Source: Opitutia bacterium ISCC 52 (GTDB lineage: Bacteria; Verrucomicrobiota; Verrucomicrobiia; Opitutales; UBA2995). Taken from it: DNA of 64,000 bases. The stretch is taken from assembly GCA_014529675.2 (NCBI GenBank), contig CP076040.1, positions 310,001-374,000 on the forward strand, given 5' to 3'. Under the pieces are notes generated by a model that was given only the letters and a program-made list of their open reading frames with translations, searched no databases and was not told the origin of the DNA. A program made the translations under genes and the position numbers. Below are positions 15,216-55,775 of the stretch, piece after piece; the first letter of the stretch is position 1; every line of letters begins with the position of its first letter.

Positions 15216-16112
15216 TTAGCTCTCTTTCCCTTGCTTGGATCTGCTTTGCGCGCGCAACTCTTCAAGTTCTTCTTTGCTAACTTTCTTAAGCCCTCGAGCC
15301 ATGTTGGTGGCCACGTGCTTGCCTTTGCTGTCGAAGAGAAAGAGGTCGACCTTGGCTCCAGCCACTTTCAGCTCAGGAAATTGACATTCGAATTCCACGG
15401 GTTGGGTTTTCCCTTCTTTTAGGTCTCCCACTGGAAAGGTTCGAATGAGGGCCGCCTTTTTTAATGATCCATCTTTTTGGGCTACTTGAAGGCTTATAGA
15501 CAAGGCGCCGTAAGCATCCTCAATGTTCTTCGTGGATATGAAGGTGCACTGGCCTTTGATCATATCCATGAACCCCAAGCCATTTAAATTGTCGATTTGA
15601 TCGATGTTCTGGTTATAGCTGAGATCTTCTTGAGTATCTTCATTATTCCAGAGATCTCGTTGTTGGTTCTGAATCTCACTAAGCCGTGCACTGTCTCCAG
15701 CGGCAGTGGCGGAGAGTCTGTCAGAGGCGAGCGCAGCATGCTCAAAATCAAGCCCCATCTGATTTTGTAAATCCTCGGCTCCGACCTCGTTCATCGAATG
15801 TAGTGCACGGATCTCGGATTCTAAGGAGTGGAGGTTGAAACTAAATTCGGCTACCTCCGCGAACATGGTGCTGACAGCTAGAATGGGTTTTAGCCCAGCG
15901 GCCAATTTCGGGGAGGGCTTTATGTTCTTTCCTCCTGCCTGGTAGCGTTTTCCGTCGAAGCTTGTGATGGGAACCATTTCTCCCTTCACATCAACGCTCA
16001 CTTTCCCGCTCAGGAAGAGGTAGTGAGATTTCTCAGAAGAAGAGGCGTTTTCTTGGCCATGGGCTAAAGAAATAGAAATGAGGAGTAGGCTGATAACAGT
16101 AATGTTTCTCAT
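15216..16112 (-). CDS. secreted protein of unknown function, TonB-cluster twin 1
   Basis: A 298-residue exported protein (signal peptide 1-19). It is a clear paralogue of the gene at 21682-22575. Both have HY-FLSG-(K/Q)(V/I)S, P-I-TFDG-R, KPI-A-S--(F/Y)AEV--FS, a Gln/Glu-rich helical middle, DQL/IDN-LSYNQ, and end with AKVDLFLFD--G-HVATN-A. The order suggests a beta-domain, a helical linker and a second beta-domain. No family is recognised. It is transcribed divergently from the DUF3450-ExbB-TonB operon, whose other end carries the twin. That makes it a candidate accessory subunit of this transport system in the periplasm. Confidence 0.75.
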   Translation of the reverse strand: MRNITVISLLLISISLAHGQENASSSEKSHYLFLSGKVSVDVKGEMVPITSFDGKRYQAGGKNIKPSPKLAAGLKPILAVSTMFAEVAEFSFNLHSLESEIRALHSMNEVGAEDLQNQMGLDFEHAALASDRLSATAAGDSARLSEIQNQQRDLWNNEDTQEDLSYNQNIDQIDNLNGLGFMDMIKGQCTFISTKNIEDAYGALSISLQVAQKDGSLKKAALIRTFPVGDLKEGKTQPVEFECQFPELKVAGAKVDLFLFDSKGKHVATNMARGLKKVSKEELEELRAQSRSKQGKES

Positions 16113-32840: not shown

Positions 32841-34061
32841 TTAGTTCTGCACAAGGCACACGATCTGACCAGCATCGTTTCGCAGGAGAATACGCCCGTG
32901 TGCGTAAGTAGGTTTGGTCCAGCAGGTGGGTTCCAGAACCTTTTTTCTTGAGATTTCCTGATAAGCGTCAGGATCCGCTTGGGCCGTTATCAGCTCTCCA
33001 TCTTCGGTCAGGACGAGCAGAGTGTCATCGATGGCAATCAGGCTCCCAAAACCGAAATCCGCAACAGACCAGTAGGCATCCCCGGTCTGCAGGTTACGTG
33101 CGTAGAGCCGAGTTCGATTGTTTTCCGGAAGGCCGTTTAAGCCATATAGGACATCATCCACAATGACCGCGGCACTCTGCGAGTTTTGCAATTTTCGATC
33201 ATTCCAAACGGTTTCAACCGCTACGCCGTCAAAACTCAAGATCTCCGAAAATGCGTTGGTGTGAATGAAGATACGCGTACCTTCCGCAAAAACCAGAGGG
33301 GTGTTCGAGATGACATTGTTTTTGGTCACCATTCGCTTGTGAAAGAGCTCCTCTCCGGAAGAGCTTAGGATGGCAAATCCGTTGCCATCCATGGCCGCGA
33401 TAAACGATAGGTCGTCCAGTTTAAATGGAACTGGCGTCCCTTAGCTGGCGCGCCTTTCCACTTCTTTCATCCAGATCAGTTTGCCGTTGAATTTATTGAG
33501 TCCGGCTACCGGTCCCGCGCTGACAATCAGTTGTTCTTCCGTCACGATTGGAGATGCGCCAAAACCCCAGCTAGGGCGGTCGACTTCCAATAGGTCAGTG
33601 AGTTGGTATTCCCGTATGAGTTGACCCGTTTCCGGACGGAGACAAAGCAACTGACCATCTTTACTGATGGCATAGAGACGGTCATTATCTATGACGATCG
33701 ATGCATTGGGTCCACCTCCATGAGCTCGCGGAATCAAGTCGGCCTCAAAGCTGTGCGTCCAGAGGGCCTCCCCGGTCTGAATATCCAAGCACACGATCGT
33801 TTCCTGCGAAGTCTGGTCGTGCCCATTTGTATAGAGGCGCTTTCCTGAAGTCGTGATGCTTGAGTAACCACGGCCAACTTGCTTGGTCCAGGCTACGTTC
33901 CATTGAGAAAGATCAGATTCGAACCCATCCTGAGTCCGTGTCGTATTGTCTTCATGAGGGCCTAACCAGGTGCTCCACTCGGATGCCTGTACAGCGGAGA
34001 CGAGGCCGAAAATGATTGCGGAGGTAGCTAACCAGCAGTGCTTGAGTCCTGGGTTGAGCAT
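32841..34061 (-). pseudogene. PQQ-like beta-propeller protein, interrupted by one stop codon
   Basis: Two halves in one reading frame: 34061-33441 (signal peptide, then SEWSTWLGPHEDNTTR..., ending VERRAS) and the rest down to 32841. They are separated only by a TAA at 33443-33441. Aligned with the intact neighbour at 34063-35280, the stop takes the place of the Tyr in AYKPGYGSPVVF; the sequence after it reads GTPVPF. No other lesion is seen, so the inactivation is recent, or the stop is a sequence error or is read through. It would encode an exported about 406-residue PQQ-binding-like propeller, a tandem duplicate of the upstream gene. Confidence 0.82.
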
Positions 34062-34062
34062 C

Positions 34063-35280
34063 TTAACCCTTTTTCAGGGCAATCAAGGTCCCGTGCTCAT
34101 TGCGGATGTAGATACGTCCGTCCACGTAAGTAGGATGAGTCCAGCAAATGGCGTCGAGTAATTTTTTGCGTGAAATTTCTGTATACTGCTTGGCATTGAC
34201 AGGAGCGGTTACCAAGTCTCCATCTTCTGTCAGGATGAGGAGCGTATCTCCCACAGCGATCATCGATGCGTATCCGAAGTTGGGTACGGACCATTTCTCT
34301 TCTCCGGTGGAAAAGTTCCGGGCATACAAATCTGTGCCGCTATTTTTATGGGTGCCGTTTACGCCATAAAGCGTTCCGTCGATCAGCAATGAACCGGATA
34401 GGGAGTTCTTTAGTTTCCGGTCCTCCCATTGAGAGGATAAGCTGGACCCATCGAAGCCAAGGACCTCCGTTTTCATATCCGTGAAAATGTAGATGTCTTT
34501 CCCCTTATTGAAAACAGCCGGCGTGGTGGCGATCATAGTGTATTTGGATCGAACTTCGTGGCGTGCGATTTCATCTCCGTTCTTCGCATTCAGAATAGAG
34601 AGTCCGCTCGAATCCATACTAGCGATAAAATCCTTCCCTCCGTTGGTGAAAACAACGGGCGAGCCATAGCCTGGTTTGTATGCCGTCTCAGATGTCCAAC
34701 TCGGCCGGCCGTTGTTTTTATCTAAAGCGACTGTCTTTCCAGCGCTGATAATTAAGTCACCCTGGTATTCAATGGGAGAACTTCCAAAACCCCACTTCGG
34801 AACCTCCATGCCTAAAATCTCGGTCAACTGAGTGCTCCACTTCACCTTCCCGGTTTTAGCATCCAATGATAGCACACGGCCATCCTTGCTGATGGTGTAA
34901 ACGACATCGCCGCTAACCGTTACGGAGGCATTCGGGCCGCCTACATGCATGGCGGGGATTAATTGCCCCTGGTAGGAATGTTCCCACAGTTTCTGGCCGG
35001 TGGTGGCATTGAAGCAGAGAATGGTTTCTGTAGACTGGCCATCGTGCCCCATGGTGTAAGCCAGACCGTTCGCGCTGGTGACCGTGGAGTAACCAAGCCC
35101 CACGTCCTTTTGCCAGGCAATTTTCCAGTTATTCAGGTCCGGGTCAAAGTTGTCGGCAGCGGCAACGATATTATCGCCATTGGGGCCGAGCCAGTGAGGC
35201 CAATCCTCAGCCTGGAGAGTGAACGCGGTAACCGACAAACTAGCCAACAGGCCTGTGAGAAAGTGTTTTCTTAAAATCAT
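34063..35280 (-). CDS. exported PQQ-like beta-propeller protein
   Basis: A 405-residue protein with a signal peptide (1-24) and a PQQ-binding-like repeat propeller. Blades carry W-type docking motifs such as ATTGQKLWEHSY, AKTGKVKWSTQL and FSTGEEKWSVPNFG. Such outer propellers are frequent in verrucomicrobial polysaccharide loci and probably bind ligand or scaffold periplasmic enzymes; no dehydrogenase domain is attached. Tandem paralogue of the pseudogene directly downstream (TAA-G-ATG spacing), so the two were one operon. Divergent from the sulfatase at 35419. Confidence 0.85.
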   Translation of the reverse strand: MILRKHFLTGLLASLSVTAFTLQAEDWPHWLGPNGDNIVAAADNFDPDLNNWKIAWQKDVGLGYSTVTSANGLAYTMGHDGQSTETILCFNATTGQKLWEHSYQGQLIPAMHVGGPNASVTVSGDVVYTISKDGRVLSLDAKTGKVKWSTQLTEILGMEVPKWGFGSSPIEYQGDLIISAGKTVALDKNNGRPSWTSETAYKPGYGSPVVFTNGGKDFIASMDSSGLSILNAKNGDEIARHEVRSKYTMIATTPAVFNKGKDIYIFTDMKTEVLGFDGSSLSSQWEDRKLKNSLSGSLLIDGTLYGVNGTHKNSGTDLYARNFSTGEEKWSVPNFGYASMIAVGDTLLILTEDGDLVTAPVNAKQYTEISRKKLLDAICWTHPTYVDGRIYIRNEHGTLIALKKG

Positions 35281-35418
35281 AATATCGTTTAGGGTTTTAA
35301 AGTGGATGTGTTTTGCCGGCTAATATTCCCGTATTGTTTTGGAACTTCAATGCGAATTGCCATCTGACAATGCTTGGGGCTTGCTCCCGACCCAGGAGTA
35401 TTGAAACACTATCGGTCT

Positions 35419-36879
35419 ATGTGTTCCCCGAAAGCTATTTTCTCTGCATCCCTGATCCTTCTAAGTACCGGTGTTTTTAGTCTGGCTGCGCCCAATGTCA
35501 TTTACATTTTGGCGGATGACTTAGGATTCAATGACCTGTCTTGCTACGGTCAGGAAACCTTGAAAACGCCGCATCTCGATCGTTTGGCCCAAAACGGTAT
35601 TCGCTTCACCAGTCATTACTCCGGAGCAACGGTGTGTGCGCCTTCGCGCTATGTCCTGATGACCGGGAAGCACAATGGTCATGCGGGTATTCGCAACAAT
35701 CGCATCAAAGCCATGGGCGAAGAAGAGTTCACAATCGCCGAACTGTTTAAAAAGGCGGGCTATCGAACGGCCTGTATCGGTAAGTGGGGTGTGGGTACTC
35801 CCCCCGACGATGACGATCCGCAGCGTGCCGGCTTTGATGAGTTCTACGGTTATTTGAACATGTTTCACGCTCACAACTACTGGCCGGAGTTTCTCATTCG
35901 AAACGGAGAGAAAGAAATGCTTCGCAATGAGGTGCCGGACTTTTTTGACGAGCCGACCAATTACATGCAGAATGCCTATTATCTGGAGGGTCGGGGAGTG
36001 GCTACAAAGAAAGTCGATTACGCGCCACAGCTTATTCAGGACGACGTGCTGCGATTTATTCGTGAGAATGAAAAGAATCCCTTCTTCCTCTATTATGCGT
36101 TGAATATCCCGCATGCTAACAACGAAGGTGGTAGTGGTTATACTGAGACAGGCGAACGCATCCGCGGAACTCAGTTTAACGGCATGGCAGTGCCCGATGT
36201 TGGAGGATTCGCAATGCAGGACTGGCCTATTCAAGAGCAAGGCTTTGCTCGCATGATTCAATACATTGACGATTGGGTGGGGGAGATCGTGGCTCTATTA
36301 GATGAATTAGACCTGACCGAAGATACGGTCGTTATGTTCTCTAGTGATAATGGTCCACACCATGAAGGTAACCATGATCACGAGTTTTTTGATTCGAACG
36401 GAGACTTCCGCAGTTACAAACGCGCGCTCTTTGATGGCGGTGTGCGAGTTCCTTTTATTGCATCCTGGCCTGGCACGATTCCCGTGGGCCAAGAAAGCGA
36501 CTTGATGTCTGGTTTCCATGACATGATGCCCACGATGGCTGAACTGATCGGTACCGAATCACCGGATACTGATGGCATTTCCATCGTTCCGACCCTCACT
36601 GCAAACAGGGATGCCCAGAAGAGACATGAGTTTTTATACTGGGAGTTTCCGTCTTTGGATGGCAGGCAAGCACTGCTCTATTTAAACCAATGGAAGGCGA
36701 TCCGGCACAACTTGTATGAAAACAAGCATGCTCCTGTTGAGTTGTACGATATCACTTGGGATGTGGGCGAGCAGACAGATGTTGCGGCGGCGCATCCAGG
36801 CTTGGCCAAGCAGCTTTTGGCCATGATGATGGAACAGCATACACCCTTTGACGAGACCTGGGACCTCACAACGGATTGA
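35419..36879 (+). CDS. sulfatase (type I, FGly)
   Basis: A 486-residue exported sulfatase. The ATG at 35419 is chosen because it begins a signal peptide (MCSPKAIFSASLILL..., cleavage near 23); the longer frame from 35374 has an unnatural N terminus. FGly motif C73-A-P-S-R77, metal site ADDLGFNDLSCYG and SSDNGPHHEGNHDH. It resembles arylsulfatase A-type enzymes. It is the first gene of a sulfatase-ThuA-DUF1080 set; the next start lies 10 bp after its stop. Confidence 0.88.
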   Translation: MCSPKAIFSASLILLSTGVFSLAAPNVIYILADDLGFNDLSCYGQETLKTPHLDRLAQNGIRFTSHYSGATVCAPSRYVLMTGKHNGHAGIRNNRIKAMGEEEFTIAELFKKAGYRTACIGKWGVGTPPDDDDPQRAGFDEFYGYLNMFHAHNYWPEFLIRNGEKEMLRNEVPDFFDEPTNYMQNAYYLEGRGVATKKVDYAPQLIQDDVLRFIRENEKNPFFLYYALNIPHANNEGGSGYTETGERIRGTQFNGMAVPDVGGFAMQDWPIQEQGFARMIQYIDDWVGEIVALLDELDLTEDTVVMFSSDNGPHHEGNHDHEFFDSNGDFRSYKRALFDGGVRVPFIASWPGTIPVGQESDLMSGFHDMMPTMAELIGTESPDTDGISIVPTLTANRDAQKRHEFLYWEFPSLDGRQALLYLNQWKAIRHNLYENKHAPVELYDITWDVGEQTDVAAAHPGLAKQLLAMMMEQHTPFDETWDLTTD

Positions 36880-36889
36880 GAGTGAAACG

Positions 36890-37546
36890 ATGCTGAAAAT
36901 TGCAGTCATAACCGGTGGGCATCCCTTCGACCTTCCTTCCTTTCATCAACTCTTCCGGAAGATGGAAGGACTCGATGCCCATATCCAGCGCTTGGATGAC
37001 TTCGGCACATCGCCGGATGAAATTCGCGATAGTTACGATGCCGTTGTGTTTTACACCATGGAGCAGTTGGTGGCTTATGAGGATACCTGGTTCAAGCGGG
37101 ATCCACGACCGGCCATTGAGAGGCTCTTTGAACGAGGGCAAGGAGTCGTTGTGCTTCATCATTCGTTCTTTGCCTTACCCGATTGGTCGTTCTGGGATGA
37201 GGTGATTGGGTTAAAGAATCGCCAGTCGGATCCAGAGGCGGGGTTTGAATTTCACTTCGACGTAGAACAGTGCGTGGAGGTTCTTGATTCAGTTCATCCC
37301 ATTCTGGCCGGAATCGAGTCCTTCGAGGCGATCGATGAAGGTTATCACATGCCTGATGAGGATGCCCAGGGGCATATGCTTCTGAAAGTGGATCATCCTA
37401 AGACTATTCGACCCACGGCTTGGACGCGTGAGGTTGGGAGCAGTCGTGTATTTTGTTTTCAATTGGGGCACGATGCTATCGGATGGAATCACTCGTCCTT
37501 CGAAACGATTCTTAGGCAGGGCATTCATTGGGTTGCCCATTCCTAG
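36890..37546 (+). CDS. ThuA-like domain protein
   Basis: A 218-residue protein of the ThuA (trehalose-utilisation) family with a class I glutamine-amidotransferase-like fold. It has KIAVITGGHPFDLPSFHQLF, AVVFYTMEQL, GQGVVVLHHSFFALPDW, DEGYHMPDE and FCFQLGHDAIGWNH. The ATG at 36890 is preferred over the in-frame 36848 start that would overlap the sulfatase. ThuA proteins are linked to oxidation or degradation of sugars; the reaction is not settled. No signal peptide. Confidence 0.85.
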   Translation: MLKIAVITGGHPFDLPSFHQLFRKMEGLDAHIQRLDDFGTSPDEIRDSYDAVVFYTMEQLVAYEDTWFKRDPRPAIERLFERGQGVVVLHHSFFALPDWSFWDEVIGLKNRQSDPEAGFEFHFDVEQCVEVLDSVHPILAGIESFEAIDEGYHMPDEDAQGHMLLKVDHPKTIRPTAWTREVGSSRVFCFQLGHDAIGWNHSSFETILRQGIHWVAHS

Positions 37547-37559
37547 CTCTCTTTTTGTC

Positions 37560-38303
37560 ATGAATCGATCACCCGAAAACGAACACTTTGGTTATAGCGA
37601 TACACCTGTGTTTCCAGATTCTGGATACACGGTGCACGATGGCACCCGACCGCAGCCACCGGTGGTAACAGCAGATGGGAATGGCGCACCCTCTGACGCT
37701 ACTGTTCTTTTTGACGGCACAAACCTGAATGCTTGGGAGTCCGTAAAGGAAGAGGGACCTGCTCAATGGAAACTAATTGAGGATGGTTCGATGGAAGTCG
37801 TACCTGGCACCGGAGACATTCAAACACTTAAATCTTTCGGCGACATTCAATTGCACCTCGAGTTTCGCTGTCCAACTGAGATTAAAGGTGAAGGGCAGGG
37901 CCGTGGAAATAGTGGAGTTTTTTTCATGGGTTTATACGAGGTTCAGGTCTTGGATAATTACAAGAACCTTACTTATGCAGACGGCACAGTAGGTGGACTT
38001 TACGGACAGCGTCCACCCCTGGTTAATGCCATTCGTGAGCCGGGCGAGTGGAACACTTATGAGATTCTCTGGGAGTGTCCTGTCTTCGAAAATGAGGCAT
38101 TGAAAAGGCCAGCACGCATTACCGCATTGCTCAACGGTGTGGTCGTCCACCATGCAAAAGAGCTTCTCGGGCCCACTATGCACAAAGAACTCCCTCCTTC
38201 TGAGGCTCATGCATCAACGGGCCCATTGAAACTCCAAGATCACGGCGACCTGGTTCGGTTTCGAAATATTTGGATCCGGCCGATGGGGGAGTATGATCAG
38301 TAG
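37560..38303 (+). CDS. DUF1080 (3-keto-disaccharide hydrolase family) protein
   Basis: A 247-residue protein of the DUF1080 family, a concanavalin-like beta sandwich. It has DATVLFDGTNLNAWES, FRCPTEIKGEGQGRGNSGVFFMGLYEVQVLDN and GPLKLQDHGDLVRFRNIWIRP. Recent work on the family describes cleavage of 3-keto-glycosides, in line with the ThuA and Gfo/Idh partners nearby. The ATG at 37560 lies 13 bp after the ThuA stop. No signal peptide is seen, although many relatives have one, so it may be cytoplasmic. Intact. Confidence 0.88.
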   Translation: MNRSPENEHFGYSDTPVFPDSGYTVHDGTRPQPPVVTADGNGAPSDATVLFDGTNLNAWESVKEEGPAQWKLIEDGSMEVVPGTGDIQTLKSFGDIQLHLEFRCPTEIKGEGQGRGNSGVFFMGLYEVQVLDNYKNLTYADGTVGGLYGQRPPLVNAIREPGEWNTYEILWECPVFENEALKRPARITALLNGVVVHHAKELLGPTMHKELPPSEAHASTGPLKLQDHGDLVRFRNIWIRPMGEYDQ

Positions 38304-38333
38304 CTTTGACTTTTCCAAGGTTCTTAGAACTTC

Positions 38334-38413
38334 GGACGGCAGAGCAAGGATGCTCTGGCCCTACCACTAGAAACGAGAAAGTTAGGGCTACTGCGTCCTC
38401 GCAGTGCCGTCGT
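38334..38413. repeat. REPIN-like pair of palindromes
   Basis: Two units in inverted orientation. 38336-38365 has the palindrome CAGAGC-aaggat-GCTCTG followed by GCCCTA. 38381-38412 begins TAGGGC and has CTGCG-tcct-CGCAG followed by GCCGT. The reverse complement of the second aligns with the first (ACGGCA..GC.AGGA.GC..T..CCCTA), so this is a two-unit REPIN-like element. It sits between DUF1080 and a pseudogene. Confidence 0.55.
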
Positions 38414-38525
38414 TAGCTTCAAGTTTTGAATTTCCCTGCAACTACTCGGTTTCGTTTGTGTAATAGAGGAATCAATCGTTCCATAGCTAAAAATAGGTGT
38501 AGAAAATCGTTCGAGCAAATAAGAC

Positions 38526-40031
38526 ATGTCTAAAAACCTTTCCGAATCATCAAACTCTGCCTCTAACCTTCGGCTATGGCCGGGAGTAACCATCGTGGCG
38601 CTCCAGTGGGTGCTACGATTTGTCGTTCCTGTGATAATTCCCGGTGCTATGATTGTTGGAGTGCTGGGGTCGATGGCTCTTGGGATCATCTTTATGCTTT
38701 GGTGGTTGTTTTTTAGTCGAGTGCGATGGGCGGAGCGCATTGGCGGGATACTGCTTATGGGGCTGGCGTTCCTAGTGGGCTCACTGTTGCTCCATGACAG
38801 CATATCCTCAGCGATGATGGGCATCATGTTCCCTGTTTTCGCTATTCCGGGATTGTGCCTTGCGTTCCTTCTATGGGCAGTGTTTTGCAGACGACATTCG
38901 GAAAGTCCGAAATGGGCGACCATCGCCATCGCCTTATTTTTGTCGACCGGTATCTGGAGCTTGGTAAAGACAGCGGGTTTCTCAAGTGACATGAATCACG
39001 ACTTTTCCTGGCGTTGGTCAAAGACAGCGGAGGAAAAACTGCTAGTTGAATCAAATGCCGATTTGTCAGGTTCTGCTGTTGCCTCTGCGCTACTCGACAC
39101 AGATGTAAAATGGTCCGGATTTCGTGGGGAAAACCGGGACAGCATTATTCGCAATGTTTTTATCGATACTGATTGGGATTCTTCTCCTCCTCAGGAGTTA
39201 TAGCGTCGTTCGATCGGACCCGGATGGTCTTCCTTTGCGGTTCAGGGTGACCTTGTGTTTACTCAGGAGCAAAGAGGTGAAGAAGAAGTGGTTGCCTGTT
39301 ACGATCTTCAAACAGGGCGGCCCGTTTGGATGCACAGCGACACGACTCGTTTTTGGGAAGCGAACGCTGGAGCAGGCCCCAGGGGCACGCCAGCTCTAAG
39401 CGGTGATCGGGTATATGCTTTGGGGGCAACGGGTATTCTCAATGCGCTCAATGTCGCCGACAGTTCTGTTGTGTGGTCGCGTCATGCTCCAACGGATACG
39501 AGTGCTAAGACACCCGGGTGGACCGCCATCGATTTGCCGCCACTCGCTCCCGATAGCCTGGTCTCAGTGATTGAAATCGAACTAGCGTGTACTTCGGAAG
39601 TGGATACGACGATCGGCCTGGATCCAAATATTGAAACAGAAATACTGGCCGAGTTCGCCACGGTGGAAGGTGCACAGATCTCGACCAAGCGGTGGACGGA
39701 AAAATTCGGAGAATGGAAGAGTGTTCGTCCAGTTCATGATTGGTCACCACGTGGTAAAGTTACCTGGGAGATCGAAGTGTATCAGCCTGGAGACTACAAT
39801 GTGAGTTTGACCTATACCGGGGACGGACGTATGGCCTGGGCAGTCAACGTGGTTGGTGGAGAGCATCTTCAAAACCAACAGAGCTCATCGAATATTTACC
39901 AAGAGTATCCTATGGGCTGGATAAATTTCCCCGAATCCGGTACCTATCAAGTCGTAGTCCGTCGCCTGGAAGGGAAACGGGAGGAAGCCCATTTGAAAGC
40001 GATTCACTTTACTCCGATCGCTGAGGATTAA
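38526..40031 (+). pseudogene. chimeric membrane-PQQ / fucosidase-tail gene with amber stop
   Basis: One continuous frame with a single TAG at 39201. Residues 1-~165 hold five hydrophobic segments, then a PQQ-type propeller begins (WSGFRGENRDS, ...SSPPQEL). After the stop it continues (RRSIGPGWSSFAVQGDLVFTQ, CYDLQTGRPVWMHSD) with the stop standing where related propellers have Trp (E-L-W-R-R). At about 39517 the propeller ends abruptly after SAKTPGW. The rest (39520-40031) resembles the C-terminal beta domain of alpha-L-fucosidase/sulfatase proteins (YQPGDYNVSLTYTGDGRMAWAVNV, GWINFPESGTYQVVVRRLEG). A deletion fusing two genes plus a nonsense mutation best explain it. Confidence 0.75.
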
Positions 40032-40036
40032 CTCGG

Positions 40037-40891
40037 CTATTGAAGTTCAGGCAATGCTCCACTTCTCGATGCCGCTTCTGCTCCGAGTTGACAGCAGACA
40101 TTGAGGAAGTCCAATTCTGGATCTTGATCGGATGAAACGAGTTGGTGCATGAGCCCTGCCATGAAGGCATCTCCAGCGCCAATAGAATCTGCCACCTCGA
40201 TTGCGGAAGTGGCTCCTGAGAAGATTTCATTTTTTTCTGAAAAGTAGAGCGCGCCCTCTTTCCCAAAGGTGACACAAAGATTTTTGGGGAAATTAGAGAA
40301 CTTTTCCTTAGCGGATCTCAACAGGCTCATGTCGCTCACGGATGCTTCCAATTGAGTGATGGCTTCGTACTCAGTCTCATTACATTTTAAGACATCGGGG
40401 GTGGCTGCGATTTCTTGAACGAGCTCGAGTTCCCAGGGATCGCGCAAGTTGATGTCGCAACATTTCAATCCGGGAAAATTCTTTAACTGAGCTTTTAGCC
40501 AGGACCAGTTTTCCGGAACGTGATTCGCGAGGGAACCATAGAGCAGCGCGTCGCCTTTTGGAAGTGGTGCTGTCTCCATCAATTCTGCAAGATGGTGCCA
40601 GGCGCAGTTGGGGGTAAAGGCGTAGCTGGCGTCTCCTTCTTCGTTGAGCGTTACTTCGACCGTTCCAGTCGGGTAGTCGCCGACTTGAACAAAGTCCGTG
40701 TTTAAACCGTATCGCTTCATTGCTTCCAACGCACGCTCGCCAAACTCATCTTTGCCGAGTGCTGAAACCATAACTGCTTCGTGCCCGAGGAGGCTGAGGT
40801 TTGCGGCTGCATTGAGAGGTGCGCCACCCAGCCGGGGGCCGGATGGGAGGCAGTCCCAGAGGATTTCGCCAAAAATAATAATACGAGACAT
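40037..40891 (-). CDS. PfkB family carbohydrate kinase
   Basis: A 284-residue ribokinase-fold sugar kinase. It has the N-terminal FGEILWDCLPSGPRLGGAPLNAAANLSLLG, and the C-terminal ATP/anion-hole motif DSIGAGDAFMAG whose Asp is the catalytic base. It resembles bacterial fructokinases. In this locus it could phosphorylate a ketose made by the isomerase-family gene (43558), but the substrate is not readable from sequence. It is transcribed towards the chimeric pseudogene and divergently from the GH29 gene. Slightly short for the family but complete. Confidence 0.85.
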   Translation of the reverse strand: MSRIIIFGEILWDCLPSGPRLGGAPLNAAANLSLLGHEAVMVSALGKDEFGERALEAMKRYGLNTDFVQVGDYPTGTVEVTLNEEGDASYAFTPNCAWHHLAELMETAPLPKGDALLYGSLANHVPENWSWLKAQLKNFPGLKCCDINLRDPWELELVQEIAATPDVLKCNETEYEAITQLEASVSDMSLLRSAKEKFSNFPKNLCVTFGKEGALYFSEKNEIFSGATSAIEVADSIGAGDAFMAGLMHQLVSSDQDPELDFLNVCCQLGAEAASRSGALPELQ

Positions 40892-40970
40892 ATGGTAATG
40901 AGAATTAGAAGCTGGGTTTCTAACTCAGCAACCTGGTTTCGGGAAGGTCTATTTTCGTCATGTTGATTTT

Positions 40971-42326
40971 ATGAATATGCGAATGGTAAATCGTGTACTG
41001 TGGGCAGGATTATTGTTGATGTTGGTCTGCTCACTCATGGGCAAAAATTATTTGGAAGAAAACGCTGAAGACCGGGATGCTCGGATGGATTGGTGGAAGG
41101 AAGCGCGCTTCGGCATGTTTATCCATTGGGGCGTCTATTCCGTTCACGGTGGAACCTACAAGGGGAATCAGGTTCCGGGTATTGGTGAGTGGATTATGAA
41201 TAAAGCTCCTATTCCCGTAGATGAATATGAAGGATATGCTGAAATGTTTAATCCTGTGTTTTTCGATGCCGAGGAGTGGGTGCGTATTGCCAAGAATGCA
41301 GGTATGAAATACATCGTCATCACCTCCAAGCATCATGACGGCTTCGCGTTGTGGGACTCGAAGGTCAGCGATTGGGATATCATGGATGCTTCGCCCTTCA
41401 AACAGGACATTTTGAAAGAGCTTTCCATTGCGTGTGAGAAGTATGGCATTCGACTTTGCTTCTATCATTCGATCATGGATTGGCATCACCCGGATGCCCA
41501 GGGACCGTTCTATCCCAAATATAATGATCGCAAGCGCGAAAATCCCCGCTTCCCCCTGTATGTAGAAAACTACTTGAAGCCCCAGTTGAAGGAACTGCTT
41601 ACCGGGTATGGGGACCTGGGGATTCTCTGGTTTGATGGCGAGTGGATTCCAGATTACAAAACCGAAATAGGAAAGGACATCTACAACTTCGTTCGCAATC
41701 TTCAACCCGACATCATTATAAACAACCGGGTCGATAAAGGGCGCAAAGGTATGGAAGGGTTGAATGCGGAAGGCAACTTTGCTGGCGACTATGGAACCCC
41801 TGAACAGGAAATTCCTGATACTGGGCTGCCCGGTGTTGATTGGGAGTCTTGCATGACTATGAACAGAACCTGGGGTTGGAAAGCTTACGACAATGAGTGG
41901 AAGTCGGATGAGCTCCTGATACGAAACCTCATTGATATCGCTTCCAAGGGGGGGAACTACCTCTTGAATGTTGGCCCTACTCATGAAGGTCTCATTCCTG
42001 CTCCCAGTATCGAGCGTCTGCGTGCGATGGGTGACTGGCTGGCCGTATATGGGGAATCGATTTACGGCTCAGATGCGAGTCCGTTTGAAAAACCTGATTG
42101 GGGTCGGTTCACACAGAAAGAGGGTGAGGTATTTGCTCACATTTTTGAATGGCCAGAAGACGGAACGCTGCGAATTCCGCTCATGGATGGGATGCCATAT
42201 AAAAGCATCCAGATTATCGATTGTTGCGATGACTTGGCTTGGGAGATCCGCGGTGACGATGCATTTATTTCTCTCCCGTTAGAAATGCAGGATGCAATTG
42301 CCACCGTTGTGAAGCTCGAGTACTGA
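40971..42326 (+). CDS. GH29 alpha-L-fucosidase
   Basis: A 451-residue exported enzyme (signal peptide about 1-24). GH29 motifs: ARFGMFIHWGVYS (46-57), SKHHDGFALWDS (119-130) and the nucleophile D222 in LWFDGEW. The acid/base position varies in the family and is not assigned. Releases L-fucose from glycans in the periplasm or outside the cell. A small beta domain ends the protein, but the longer C-terminal domain seen as a remnant in the neighbouring pseudogene is absent. The first annotated ATG fits the signal peptide. Confidence 0.9.
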   Translation: MNMRMVNRVLWAGLLLMLVCSLMGKNYLEENAEDRDARMDWWKEARFGMFIHWGVYSVHGGTYKGNQVPGIGEWIMNKAPIPVDEYEGYAEMFNPVFFDAEEWVRIAKNAGMKYIVITSKHHDGFALWDSKVSDWDIMDASPFKQDILKELSIACEKYGIRLCFYHSIMDWHHPDAQGPFYPKYNDRKRENPRFPLYVENYLKPQLKELLTGYGDLGILWFDGEWIPDYKTEIGKDIYNFVRNLQPDIIINNRVDKGRKGMEGLNAEGNFAGDYGTPEQEIPDTGLPGVDWESCMTMNRTWGWKAYDNEWKSDELLIRNLIDIASKGGNYLLNVGPTHEGLIPAPSIERLRAMGDWLAVYGESIYGSDASPFEKPDWGRFTQKEGEVFAHIFEWPEDGTLRIPLMDGMPYKSIQIIDCCDDLAWEIRGDDAFISLPLEMQDAIATVVKLEY

Positions 42327-42328
42327 TT

Positions 42329-43384
42329 TTAGTCGAAGACCACTTCTCTGCCGGTCCGACTCGATTCGGATACGGCATCTAGGATTTTTTGAACTGCCAA
42401 GCCTTGCTCTAGATTCATGGCCAGTGGTTCGTCGCCGGTCAGATGATTGATGAAGTTGTGGAAACGATTGCCGTGTGGAAATGGATTGGATCGGCTTCCT
42501 ATCTCAACTGCATGGTAGTCATTCGGTTTGGAACCGGGACGATAAAGCTTGGCTGGACTCATGGATGCCCCTGCCTCCGTTCCAAAGAGCTCTATCCCTT
42601 GCCGGTTTTCCTCAGCGGCGTGACAGGCCCAGGTAACTTCCAGGTGAACGGTCGCTCCGTTCTTCATTTTGATGAGGGCAGAAGCAAAGTCATCTACATC
42701 AAAGGTAATATCCTCCTTGTCTGAGTTCCCCCAATCACCTTCTCCCAAACCGCGGTTGCCAAATTTTGTATAAGTGACGCCCGATACTGAAGCAGGTTCA
42801 AAATTGTTCATCAGGTATAAACAGGCATCCAGGTAGTGGACACCGATATCGTTAATGGCTCCTGCGCCAGCCAATTCTTTGTTTCCGAACCAGGTACCCA
42901 GTTTAGGGATACCAGAACGGCGGAACCAATAGGCCTTGGCATGGTAGACCTCTCCAAGCTCGCCTTCTTCGACTACAGATCTGATTCGTTGGACTTCCTC
43001 GAAGAAGCGAAGGTTCATGCCCAGAGTAAAGCATTTACCACTGACTCTGGCTGCCGCTGCGACTTCCTCTGCCTGTGGTTGGTTCATAGCAAATGGTTTT
43101 TCAAGGATGACATGCTTTCCTGCCTGCAGTGCCTGGATTGCCAAGGGTGCGTGAAACTTATTGGGCACGGCTATGTAAACCGCATCCACCTGATCGCTGG
43201 CGAGTAACTCCTCGCTGCTTGCAAATGTCTCCGCTATCTTGTGTTTGGTGGCGAGTGCTTCGCACCTTCCTTGGTTGAGGTCCTGGATAGCAACTACCTG
43301 AGCCGCTGCATGCTGGTTGATTTCTCCTGCACTAATATCTGCTATTTGTCCTGCGCCGATGAGCCCGAACTGTATCTTTTTCAT
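42329..43384 (-). CDS. Gfo/Idh/MocA family oxidoreductase
   Basis: A 351-residue NAD(P)-dependent dehydrogenase. The ATG at 43384 is chosen since MKKIQFGLIGAGQIAD opens the Rossmann fold at once. GAGQIA binds the dinucleotide, and HVILEKPFAMN carries the conserved E-K-P motif whose Lys is catalytic in the family. The C-terminal beta sheet domain has GAGAINDIGVHYLDACLYLM with the conserved His. It oxidises or reduces a sugar; with ThuA and DUF1080 this suits a 3-keto-sugar route. Convergent with the fucosidase gene (2 bp gap). Confidence 0.88.
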   Translation of the reverse strand: MKKIQFGLIGAGQIADISAGEINQHAAAQVVAIQDLNQGRCEALATKHKIAETFASSEELLASDQVDAVYIAVPNKFHAPLAIQALQAGKHVILEKPFAMNQPQAEEVAAAARVSGKCFTLGMNLRFFEEVQRIRSVVEEGELGEVYHAKAYWFRRSGIPKLGTWFGNKELAGAGAINDIGVHYLDACLYLMNNFEPASVSGVTYTKFGNRGLGEGDWGNSDKEDITFDVDDFASALIKMKNGATVHLEVTWACHAAEENRQGIELFGTEAGASMSPAKLYRPGSKPNDYHAVEIGSRSNPFPHGNRFHNFINHLTGDEPLAMNLEQGLAVQKILDAVSESSRTGREVVFD

Positions 43385-43557
43385 GGTATTGTATTGATGA
43401 TTAGACTTTGAATAGCGAACTAAATGCGTCAATGGTTGTCCTTTCGACGGTAAGAAAAGGATCTAATCAACGGCCTTAACTTCTGCTTTACTGATAAAGT
43501 TTCCCTAGCTTTGCCTTTTCATCCGAAGGACAAAGCTTATTAATAGAATCCTCTACT

Positions 43558-45174
43558 ATGAAAATTACCCTAATTGCGAGTGGCGACTTACGCGAAAGTG
43601 CCAACCAAACCTGCTGGGAGAAACAAGCCGAAATGGAAGCGCAGCTTAGCGACGTGGTGGCGAAGCTCGGGCATGAGCTTGAACGGGCGCATCTCTACAA
43701 TAAAGCCCGTGGCCATGGTTTCATTGGAAGTCAAAAGGAAGGCATGGATGTCTTTTCCAAGATAGATCCTAAGCAACCCATCATTGTGGCAGAGGCGGTG
43801 TGGCAATACAGTCACCACATCTTGCACGGGCTCATCAGCCACCAGGCGCCCATACTCACTGTAGCGAACTGGTCGGGTACCTGGCCAGGGCTTGTTGGTA
43901 TGCTTAATCTTAACGGCTCACTTACGAAAGCTGGAGTGAAGTATTCGACGCTCTGGAGCGAGGACTTTAGTGACGATTTGTTCTTAAACGGATTAACATC
44001 CTGGTTGGAAACTGGCGAAGTCGTTCATGCCACACCGCAGGTAAACCCGTTTGGCGGAGCATCGGGGCAGGCCGATGAAGTTGCTGGCCAACTAGCTGGA
44101 CAGTTACAGAGGGACAAAGCCATAATGGGCGTCTTCGACGAAGGTTGCATGGGAATGTTCAATGCCATCATACCTGATCACCTGCTTTTCTCGACCGGAG
44201 TTTACAAAGAACGTCTGAGCCAATCGGCCCTTTATGCTGGGATGCAGGAGGTCAGCGACGAGGAAGCTGCGAGTGCCTATCAGTGGATTTGTGATCGTGG
44301 ATTCAACTTTCATTTCGGTGAAGACGAAGTTGAGGACCTGACCGAGGCGCAAGTACTTGAGCAGTGCAAATTGTATATTGCTGCCTGTCGGATCGGAGAT
44401 TTCTTCGGGTGCGACGCGATTGGTATTCAATATCAACAAGGACTCAAAGACCTGTGTCCTGCCTCTGACCTTGCCGAAGGTTTACTTAATAGCAGCGAGC
44501 GTCCCCCAGTGACCAATGATGCTGGAGAAGTCATCAAGGCCGGGAAACCATTTACTCATTTCAACGAAGTTGACGAGTGTGCCGGACTGGATGGATTGCT
44601 GACCCAGCGAGTGCACGATGCACTGGGTCAACCGCCGGAAAATACTCTGCACGATTTACGTTGGGGCGATGCTGACAAAAGTGGCACCACCGACGAATAC
44701 GTCTGGGTGTTTCTCATCAGTGGGTCTGTCCCAGTCGAGCACAACGGTGGCTATGAAAACTGTCATGGTTATCGCCAGCCCATTATGTACTTTGGTAAAG
44801 GTGGATCCACCTTGCAGGGTATATCTCATCCCGGCGAAGTGGTGTGGAGTCGTATCTGGGTTGATGGATCTGTGCCCGGCGGCCAGCTCTGCATGGATCT
44901 GGGTCGTGGAGAAGCTATTGAATTACCGGAAGAAGAAACTCAACGCCGCCTCAATGAAACGACTCCTCAATGGCCGATCATGCATTGTATCACCTATGGA
45001 GTGTCGCGCGACGAGATGATGGCCCGTCATAAGGCCAACCACATTCAGCTTGCTTATGCCAACAGCGCTGAAGACGCGGACCTGGCCATGCAAACGAAGG
45101 CCGCATTGGCCGCCAAACTAGGAATTAAGGTCTCTCTGTGCGGAACGGGCAAGGGCGGGGCACCTTTGTCTTAG
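43558..45174 (+). CDS. L-fucose/L-arabinose isomerase family protein
   Basis: A 538-residue protein that I place in the fucose/arabinose isomerase fold from its overall layout: an N-terminal Rossmann-like part ([56 protein letters not shown]), a middle with [17 protein letters not shown] and [29 protein letters not shown], and a C-terminal barrel with [20 protein letters not shown] and [14 protein letters not shown]. In the family Mn2+ is held by Glu, Asp and His residues; here I cannot assign them surely. Would convert L-fucose to L-fuculose. Next to GH29, kinase and dehydrogenase genes. Confidence 0.75.
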
Positions 45175-45235
45175 TTTCATTTTATTGGCTGTAAACAAGC
45201 CAGTCTGGGCAGTTTGGGATAGATTCAGCCCCTCC

Positions 45236-45254
45236 ATCAAAAATTGTTTTTGAT
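45236..45254. repeat. short palindrome
   Basis: ATCAAAAA-ttg-TTTTTGAT forms a perfect 8-bp inverted repeat in the 231-bp gap between converging genes. It may act as a weak two-way terminator; the stem is AT-only. Confidence 0.35.
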
Positions 45255-45405
45255 AAAATCAGTGAACTGGGGTGTTTTAGCTGTGTTAAGCTCATTGTAT
45301 TTTCTGAATGGCTCCCGAATTCTCAGATCAAAATTTATGGTTCTCGCAGAACTCTATTCAATGGAAAAGTGATTTTAGGCTGTTTTTCCTGGCGATCTTC
45401 CAACC

Positions 45406-54374: not shown

Positions 54375-55775
54375 GTGTCCGATATCTCAGATCCAATTAC
54401 TCCTTCGCAAGCACCCACTTCTTCCGGCGAATTTGAACGCGAACCCGTTCCTCCATCCGAGCTTAAAGGCGCCAATAAGTTCTGGGGTATGTATGCGGGC
54501 GAGCATTGTGCTGGAACGGAGTTTATGATCGGCCCACTGTTTCTCCTAAATGGAGTGAGTCTGCAGAACATTTTTCTCGGTCTTCTTCTAGGAAACTTAC
54601 TGGCGGTGCTTAGTTGGCGATTCCTGTGCGCACCGATTGCGACTCAGGCTCGGCTCACACTCTATTATCATTTGGAAAAGATCGCCGGCAATAAACTGGT
54701 GATTCTCTACAACCTGGCGAACGGCATTCTGTTTTGTTTCTTAGCCGGAGCCATGATTACCGTGTCCGCGACGGCGGTGGGGATCCCTTTCGATATTCCC
54801 ATGCCAACAAAGGAGGATGTTTTCCCCAACAGTATTTCGTTTGTTGTCATAGTTCTTGCGGTGGGTTCTGTCATCGCCTTGGTAGCGGCCAAGGGCTACG
54901 ATACCGTTGCCAAGTTCGCCAATGTTGCTGCCCCTTGGATGATTCTGGTGTTTGCTGCTTGTGGCATTGTTGCTTTCAAACAGCTGGAAGTCTCGGACTG
55001 GGCAGCACTCAACAGCTTGTGGAGTGAGTCCATTGTATTCGCTCAGGAAGAAGAGGCTGCATCCTCCATGAGTTTCTGGAGCGTGGTATTTTTTGGCTGG
55101 TTTTGTAATGCCGCGATGCACGTAGGTATGTCCGACCTATCTGTTTTTCGTTTTGCTAAAAAGCCTAGTTATGGCTGGGCCTCCGCTGCGGGCATGTATG
55201 TCGGTCACTATATGGCTTGGATAGCCGCGGCCTTCATGCTGGCCGCTCAGATTAAACTCCTGCGCGATGCCAATCCGGTTCCTGGCCCCATGGCCTACAG
55301 TGTCGCAGGTATTGCCGGAATTATTTGTGTGATCGTGGCCGGCTGGACTACAGCCAACCCAACCATCTACCGCGCGGGTCTCGCTTTTCAGGCTATCGTT
55401 CCCAAAGTGTCACGCTTCAAGGTCACTTTGTTCACCGGATTTATAGCTACTGTGGCAGGAACCTTTCCTGCAATCGCATGGCAGCTACTCGATTTTGTAG
55501 GCATCTACGGAACTATCCTGGCACCTATTGGGGCGATCATTTTCTTTGATTGGTATTTCAGACGAAACGGGGATTCAGCGAATTTCCATAGTGCCGGACC
55601 TGCTTCTTCTTTCAGCATACCTGTGCTCATATCCTGGCTCGTCCCAGTATCCATAGGATTATATTTCTATAAATTCCATGGAGTATCCGCCTGGTATCTG
55701 CCTTTACCCTGCTGGCTTGGTTGCGGAGTACTTTACCTGGCTCTTAACAAAAAAGAGGCGACCGCCTCAGCTTAG
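54375..55775 (+). CDS. NCS1-type permease (cytosine/purine family)
   Basis: A 466-residue membrane protein with about 12 hydrophobic helices, starting at GTG 54375. It resembles the cytosine/purine/uracil/thiamine/allantoin permeases (NCS1, CodB-like): a hydrophilic N tail, then FWGMYAGEHCAGTEFMIGPLF, a GYDTVAKFANVAAPWMIL helix 5-6 region and WTTANPTIYRAGLAFQAIVP. Substrate is not certain; relatives transport nucleobases, hydantoins or vitamins. Divergent from the lyase pseudogene. The small membrane protein gene follows at 20 bp. Confidence 0.8.
   Translation: MSDISDPITPSQAPTSSGEFEREPVPPSELKGANKFWGMYAGEHCAGTEFMIGPLFLLNGVSLQNIFLGLLLGNLLAVLSWRFLCAPIATQARLTLYYHLEKIAGNKLVILYNLANGILFCFLAGAMITVSATAVGIPFDIPMPTKEDVFPNSISFVVIVLAVGSVIALVAAKGYDTVAKFANVAAPWMILVFAACGIVAFKQLEVSDWAALNSLWSESIVFAQEEEAASSMSFWSVVFFGWFCNAAMHVGMSDLSVFRFAKKPSYGWASAAGMYVGHYMAWIAAAFMLAAQIKLLRDANPVPGPMAYSVAGIAGIICVIVAGWTTANPTIYRAGLAFQAIVPKVSRFKVTLFTGFIATVAGTFPAIAWQLLDFVGIYGTILAPIGAIIFFDWYFRRNGDSANFHSAGPASSFSIPVLISWLVPVSIGLYFYKFHGVSAWYLPLPCWLGCGVLYLALNKKEATASA

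Follow-up and report, generated by a model that had tools for sequence, protein, structure and literature searches.

Here we describe a reading frame at 38526-40031 (+) of a 64,000-nucleotide stretch of bacterial DNA (hereafter the window, meaning the whole stretch analysed). The frame is very probably a recent pseudogene, made by an illegitimate deletion that joined a propeller gene to a fucosidase gene and carrying, in addition, a premature TAG. It reads through 225 codons to the TAG at 39201-39203 and then through 275 open codons to a TAA at 40029-40031 (Table 1). Both joined parts have intact parents in living relatives, the two parent families share a Trp codon at the point of the join, and the missing halves were not found in the genome. 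The window corresponds to bases 310001-374000 of a single 4.8-Mb contig, within which its sequence occurs once, and the nearest named relatives are uncultured Opitutales assemblies.

Overall organization of the fused frame

The original prediction described a chimera of membrane segments, half a PQQ propeller and a fucosidase C-terminal domain. This make-up is present: the N-terminal part and the propeller match the congener G004, and the tail matches GH29 C-termini from its first residue. When each part was searched separately, intact parents were recovered, in G004 for the propeller and, for the fucosidase, in other families belonging to the same order and class. Since these parents exist apart and the same architecture is absent elsewhere among the loci examined, the description of the frame as a chimera of two genes holds.

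Table 1 Coordinates of the fused frame, its parts and the surrounding features
Feature	Position	Strand	Basis
Neighbouring propeller gene, broken by TAA 33441-33443	32844..34061	-	Near full-length match to G004 L031:7558-8799, 61%
Divergent island (1.8 kb) breaking an otherwise collinear match to G005	38288..40049	+	Nucleotide comparison with G005
Dispersed palindromic repeat, just inside left edge of island	38325..38425	.	Genome search, folding
N-terminal part: membrane helices and linker, as far as first propeller strand	38526..39200	+	76% identity to intact G004 protein
In-frame TAG at Trp codon, family position 226	39201..39203	+	TGG in G004
First two blades of BamB/PQQ-like propeller	39204..39521	+	Pfam PQQ_2 34.2 bits against a cut-off of 27.6; 88.7% identity to G004
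Junction, GGG TGG	39516..39521	+	TGG in phase in both parent families; DNA match to G004 stops at 39521
Cut end (last strands) of GH29 Fucosidase_C	39519..39599	+	Alignment to G086, G111, G091 and the window's own GH29; residues 1-27 of tail model of low confidence
C-terminal beta-sandwich from GH29 fucosidase, carbohydrate-binding-module-like, predicted complete	39600..40028	+	Whole-tail profile and Foldseek
TAA ending the fused frame	40029..40031	+	Frame reading

The membrane-anchored propeller parent

The first parent is a membrane-anchored propeller protein, the gene for which is whole in G004 (576 codons from the likely ATG). An AlphaFold2 model of the G004 protein, built from 38 relatives (mean pLDDT 87.5), contains five membrane helices (residues 18-37, 39-63, 68-88, 101-120 and 126-146) and a propeller of eight blades by strand count, the last of which is closed by the first strand (residues 223-229). 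The solved structures that best match this model are those of BamB; against the NCBIfam BamB equivalog models, the membrane-propeller family scores far under the cut-offs. The membrane helices of the window copy are assigned by homology, its residues 1-225 aligning to the G004 protein on whose model the helices were predicted. The junction corresponds to W332 of the model, a Trp in all 38 relatives. As this residue falls after blade two, about two of the eight blades are left in the window copy, by strand count on the model, and not the half propeller originally proposed. A closed propeller in one open frame is not found in the window copy (stop at 39201; two of eight blades).

The GH29 fucosidase parent

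Over its last ~170 residues the frame matches GH29 fucosidases at their C-terminus, and the intact parents (~590 aa) come from other families within the order and the class. Tail matches were present in 7 of 132 relatives and 33 of 384 genomes of the class (own genome counted in both), the nearest being 50-57% identical. We examined 26 tail loci, comprising 24 from the relatives and class searches together with L114 and L118, and excluding the window's own, one short weak match (L021) and places that had been given no locus; GH29 catalytic sequence adjoins the tail in every one of them. A profile of 15 tails matches two GH29 structures, PDB 9rzx (residues 432-597, E 3.8e-64) and 9rzy (E 7.5e-62).

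The beta domain of the original prediction is indeed a fucosidase C-terminus, but it comprises two parts: Fucosidase_C accounts, with its end, for the first ~27 residues, and the remainder is a separate beta-sandwich resembling CBM6/CBM35. This beta-sandwich is predicted to be complete, from a tail model of modest quality (mean pLDDT 69, three sequences) in which Foldseek matched it to the FucWf4 GH29-like fucosidase and to CBM6/CBM35. None of the three pieces into which the fused frame was divided matched the catalytic domain (PF01120). The window's own GH29 gene (40971-42326) was rejected as the parent, because it stops short of the extra domain. The G005 copy of that gene (L032:8281-9636) is in two open frames, with ~190 bases between them.

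Junction and deletion model

The junction had been placed near 39517, which is close; its actual place is the Trp codon at 39519-39521. The junction codons are CCC GGG TGG ACC in the window and CCT GGC TGG GGT in G004, and DNA homology to G004 ends exactly with the shared TGG. At the equivalent site TGG is found in 38/38 propellers and 12/12 fucosidases. A Gly codon precedes it in 7 of the 12 fucosidases (GGG TGG in the nearest, G438) and in 8 of the 38 propellers; among the congeners the preceding residue is Gly in one of three (G004), with Ala in G005 and Leu in G001. Gly-Trp as a stretch common to both families was rejected on this recount, which leaves Trp alone. The sure common stretch is thus three bases (TGG), or five or six if the parents resembled G004 and G438, and three bases may be chance. 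Because both parent families carry the Trp codon in the same phase, selection is not needed to explain a join in frame, and a random cut is in frame one time in three. At only 57% identity, the nearest fucosidase parent is too distant for exact breakpoints to be fixed. Both the propeller and Fucosidase_C are cut within the fold, and comparison with G004 and G086 puts the lost parts at ~730 bases of the propeller gene and ~1,260 of the fucosidase gene.

We propose that a gene encoding five membrane helices and a BamB-like propeller of eight blades would have stood upstream of a GH29 alpha-L-fucosidase gene on the same strand. An illegitimate deletion of ~2 kb or more, with both ends at the in-phase Trp codon TGG (perhaps GGnTGG), would have removed six propeller blades together with the fucosidase's catalytic part, leaving the remainder joined in frame; separately, before or after the deletion, the Trp codon at the first propeller strand would have become TAG. 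A deletion between neighbours is the simplest account of the join. We infer that the fucosidase gene was once a neighbour, that one deletion sufficed, that the bases in common guided it and that the product lacks a function.

A search of the genome with the missing propeller half of G004 returned at best a 40% match, to a paralogue, and a search with the missing fucosidase half of G438 returned at best a 43% match, to the window's other GH29; no second copy of the tail was found within the same genome. The absence of the missing halves elsewhere in the genome supports deletion. The layout before the deletion has not been seen, which counts against the deletion model. None of 12 neighbourhoods (4.5-18 kb) around fucosidases of relatives contains a propeller match, and no fucosidase lies between the propeller gene and PfkB, or its remnant, in G005 or G001. 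In G005 the propeller gene directly abuts PfkB, with nothing fucosidase-like between them; in G001 the propeller gene is followed by a 58-base match to the PfkB end, after which comes sequence matching the fucose-isomerase-like gene at its end. These last two matches (L033:12355-12548, equivalent to window 40051-40108 and 45016-45147) are likely to be the scar left by another, separate large deletion.

Searches of 132 relatives, of 384 genomes of the class (with the tail only) and of 53 relatives at the DNA level recovered no fusion, either with the stop or lacking it. No fucosidase tail occurs at 78 propeller loci (from the best 80 of 112), and no propeller match occurs at the 26 fucosidase-tail loci. 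The original prediction had suggested looking for an unbroken version of the fusion in relatives, and none turned up in these sets; nor did a conserved family of this architecture, which would have argued against a chimera. Such a family was rejected, as no second genome examined has the architecture, and among those examined the fusion is seen in this genome alone. At the level of titles, open-access literature on fucosidase loci, pseudogene fusions and illegitimate recombination yielded nothing on this gene pair.

The in-frame TAG

The amber codon replaces an expected Trp, as originally proposed: the corresponding residue, W226 in the closing strand of the G004 model, is Trp in all 38 relatives. 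One substitution would yield the TAG, and the remaining frame is intact. Relative to the intact homologue, the disabling lesions are thus the TAG at an invariant Trp and the loss of six blades. As the TAG falls at the first propeller strand, translation would yield at most a membrane stub.

It is extremely improbable that the gene is instead split or recoded, with the TAG read through or with two proteins made from two frames. The frame does go on after the stop, a 258-aa product could begin at the GTG at 39255, and the copies in G005 and G001 are split too, at other places. Against this, the breaks differ between species in both place and kind, and TAG is a common, ordinary stop, terminating 13 of 34 main window frames (a set of our choosing). 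Recoding of TAG as Trp was considered unlikely for the same reason, and the tRNA genes viewed, those in the window, are three (Lys, Thr and Thr). A scan of 38250-40100 for sigma-70-like promoters, the one type it covered, found 0 sites where 1.7 were expected by chance; terminator-like sites numbered 3, against 1.8 expected.

Gene decay at the locus and age of the break

The membrane-propeller gene is also broken in two congeners, by an in-frame TGA in G005 (L032:10567-12300) and by a frameshift in G001 (L033:10418-12143), and these breaks differ in place and kind from each other and from that in the window. Both genomes are fragmented assemblies, so their breaks could be consensus errors. The same caution lends something to the view that the join or the stop in the window is a sequencing or assembly artefact, which is nonetheless very improbable: the window lies inside one 4.8-Mb contig, a single substitution gives the TAG in an otherwise intact frame, and nothing was mis-joined from within this genome, since the missing halves are not found elsewhere in it.

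The neighbouring propeller gene on the minus strand (Table 1) is open apart from its single TAA, which stands where G004 has Tyr; G005 keeps only ~90 bases at this place. Among the 78 propeller loci, in named genomes, L059, L079 and L085 also look interrupted, and broken propeller copies are therefore not unique to this genus.

Over 330 codons of the membrane and propeller part, dN is 0.13 and dS 1.6 relative to G004. The window copy departs at 2 of the 40 columns that are invariant in the other family rows, one of them the stop; this places it among the highest, level with two other rows, against a median of 0. The tail departs at 0 of 20 invariant and 0 of 27 nearly invariant columns. At sites on which G001 and G005 agree, 3 changes are private to the window and 6 to G004. 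On these counts the break is recent relative to how old the genes are. For the tail, dS against its relatives has reached saturation, which prevented any dating of selection there. The column and dN/dS data fit a recently dead gene and a gene recently working as a fusion alike, and do not separate the two.

A fusion that was once a working protein, with a membrane anchor, two blades and a carbohydrate-binding-like domain, and that was later silenced by the amber codon, is improbable. In its favour, the junction is in frame, the beta-sandwich is predicted to be complete with zero conserved tail columns lost, and the 275 codons past the TAG contain neither stop nor frameshift. This last point would also suit a frame that was until lately under selection, and in that respect weighs against the deletion pseudogene. 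The in-phase Trp codon, or a one-in-three chance, accounts for the frame without selection; a recent break accounts equally well for the intact tail; no relative with the fusion was found among the genomes searched; and two of eight blades would not be expected to close a propeller, just as only the end of Fucosidase_C is left. The original prediction reasoned that the frame was kept across the join until the stop arose, and that the fusion may thus have worked for a time. This does not follow, as the stop may have preceded or followed the join and the shared in-phase Trp or chance suffices. A once-working new protein is possible, and all that points to it is explained by the common codon or by chance.

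A divergent island and possible exchange between species

The fused frame lies in an island that interrupts an otherwise collinear match to the congener G005. Nucleotide identity to G005 is 78% on the left flank (34080-38287) and 86% on the right (40050-45352); inside the island, matches at E<=1e-5 are confined to 38698-38756 and 39111-39433 (69%; 59 and 331 aligned bases). All five flanking genes that were compared are closest to G005 (81-91% protein identity), with lower identity to G004 (58-79%). For the propeller gene this is reversed, with identities over the N-terminal and propeller parts of 49% and 65% to G005 versus 76% and 89% to G004. In a FastTree tree of 80 rows, which left out L039 and L069 (duplicates of the G004 and G005 records), the interrupted L085 and one row with too few residues, the window and G004 group together with a support of 0.998 and the four congeners group with 0.956; the position of G005 within the congener group is unsupported (0.096).

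Just inside the left edge of the island, the repeat at 38325-38425 folds into a hairpin of -45.9 kcal/mol (z -5.4), and a query of 38300-38525 has 26 matches in the genome at E<=0.001, itself included and mostly partial. The repeat may be a REP-like element.

From these sequence comparisons, the window allele may have been exchanged between species, or old copies may have been sorted. That the chimera formed in such an exchange, or arrived with it, is a tentative possibility: a G004-like allele would have recombined in, and the fucosidase end would have been carried along or gained at the right-hand joint. The sharp edges of the island (38288-40049), the repeat at its left edge and the strongly supported pairing with G004, in a gene whose five flanking genes are nearest to G005, argue for this. 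Yet exchange accounts for the origin of the allele rather than for the join, ancient tandem copies followed by differential loss would produce the same tree, and the placement of G005 is unsupported. The layout of the donor is unreadable because the G004 contig ends 212 bases past the gene, and G004 has no match to the tail. Exchange is compatible with the deletion pseudogene, and the probabilities that we give to the two overlap. A combined version, in which a short-lived but real anchor protein displayed the fucosidase carbohydrate-binding-like domain, moved between species with the island and was recently silenced here, is a long shot.

The genes around the island encode sulfatases, ThuA, a 3-keto-disaccharide hydrolase domain, a PfkB kinase, GH29, Gfo/Idh and a fucose-isomerase-like protein; fucose and sulfated-sugar loci of such a kind have been reported from marine Verrucomicrobiota (PMC8857213). 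Two further frames in the window have no Pfam match at E<=0.001, one of 466 aa at 54375-55775 (+) and one of 298 aa at 15216-16112 (-).

Comparison with known systems

The fused frame offers a legible example of two unrelated genes joined without loss of frame at a Trp codon that each carries in the same phase. That a chimera is in frame does not, taken alone, point to a new working protein. The frame stands in a sugar-use locus in which one gene is broken in three of the four congeners found to carry it, each time differently, and which bears signs of exchange between species.

With the membrane-anchored PQQ_2/BamB-like propellers (PF13360; Verrucomicrobiota, Acidobacteriota and others) the window copy shares the N-terminal part and the first two blades, and it retains the RLWPG start, GFRG and the RR-GPGWSSFAV stretch of that family. 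It differs from them in that a stop takes the place of the invariant Trp in the ELWRR motif and the last six blades are missing. With the GH29 alpha-L-fucosidases (9rzx and 9rzy; G438, G086, G111 and G091) it shares the last ~170 residues, from the invariant Trp onward; unlike those enzymes, it is without PF01120 and has only the last strands of Fucosidase_C.

Bacterial pseudogenes that arise by deletion and nonsense mutation, as treated in the review PMC11078800, likewise have a premature stop, a truncation and an intact homologue in relatives. In the text of that review the word 'fusion' is absent and 'chimeric' occurs once, about vsg genes. Unlike the pseudogenes it describes, the window gene joins two genes in frame.
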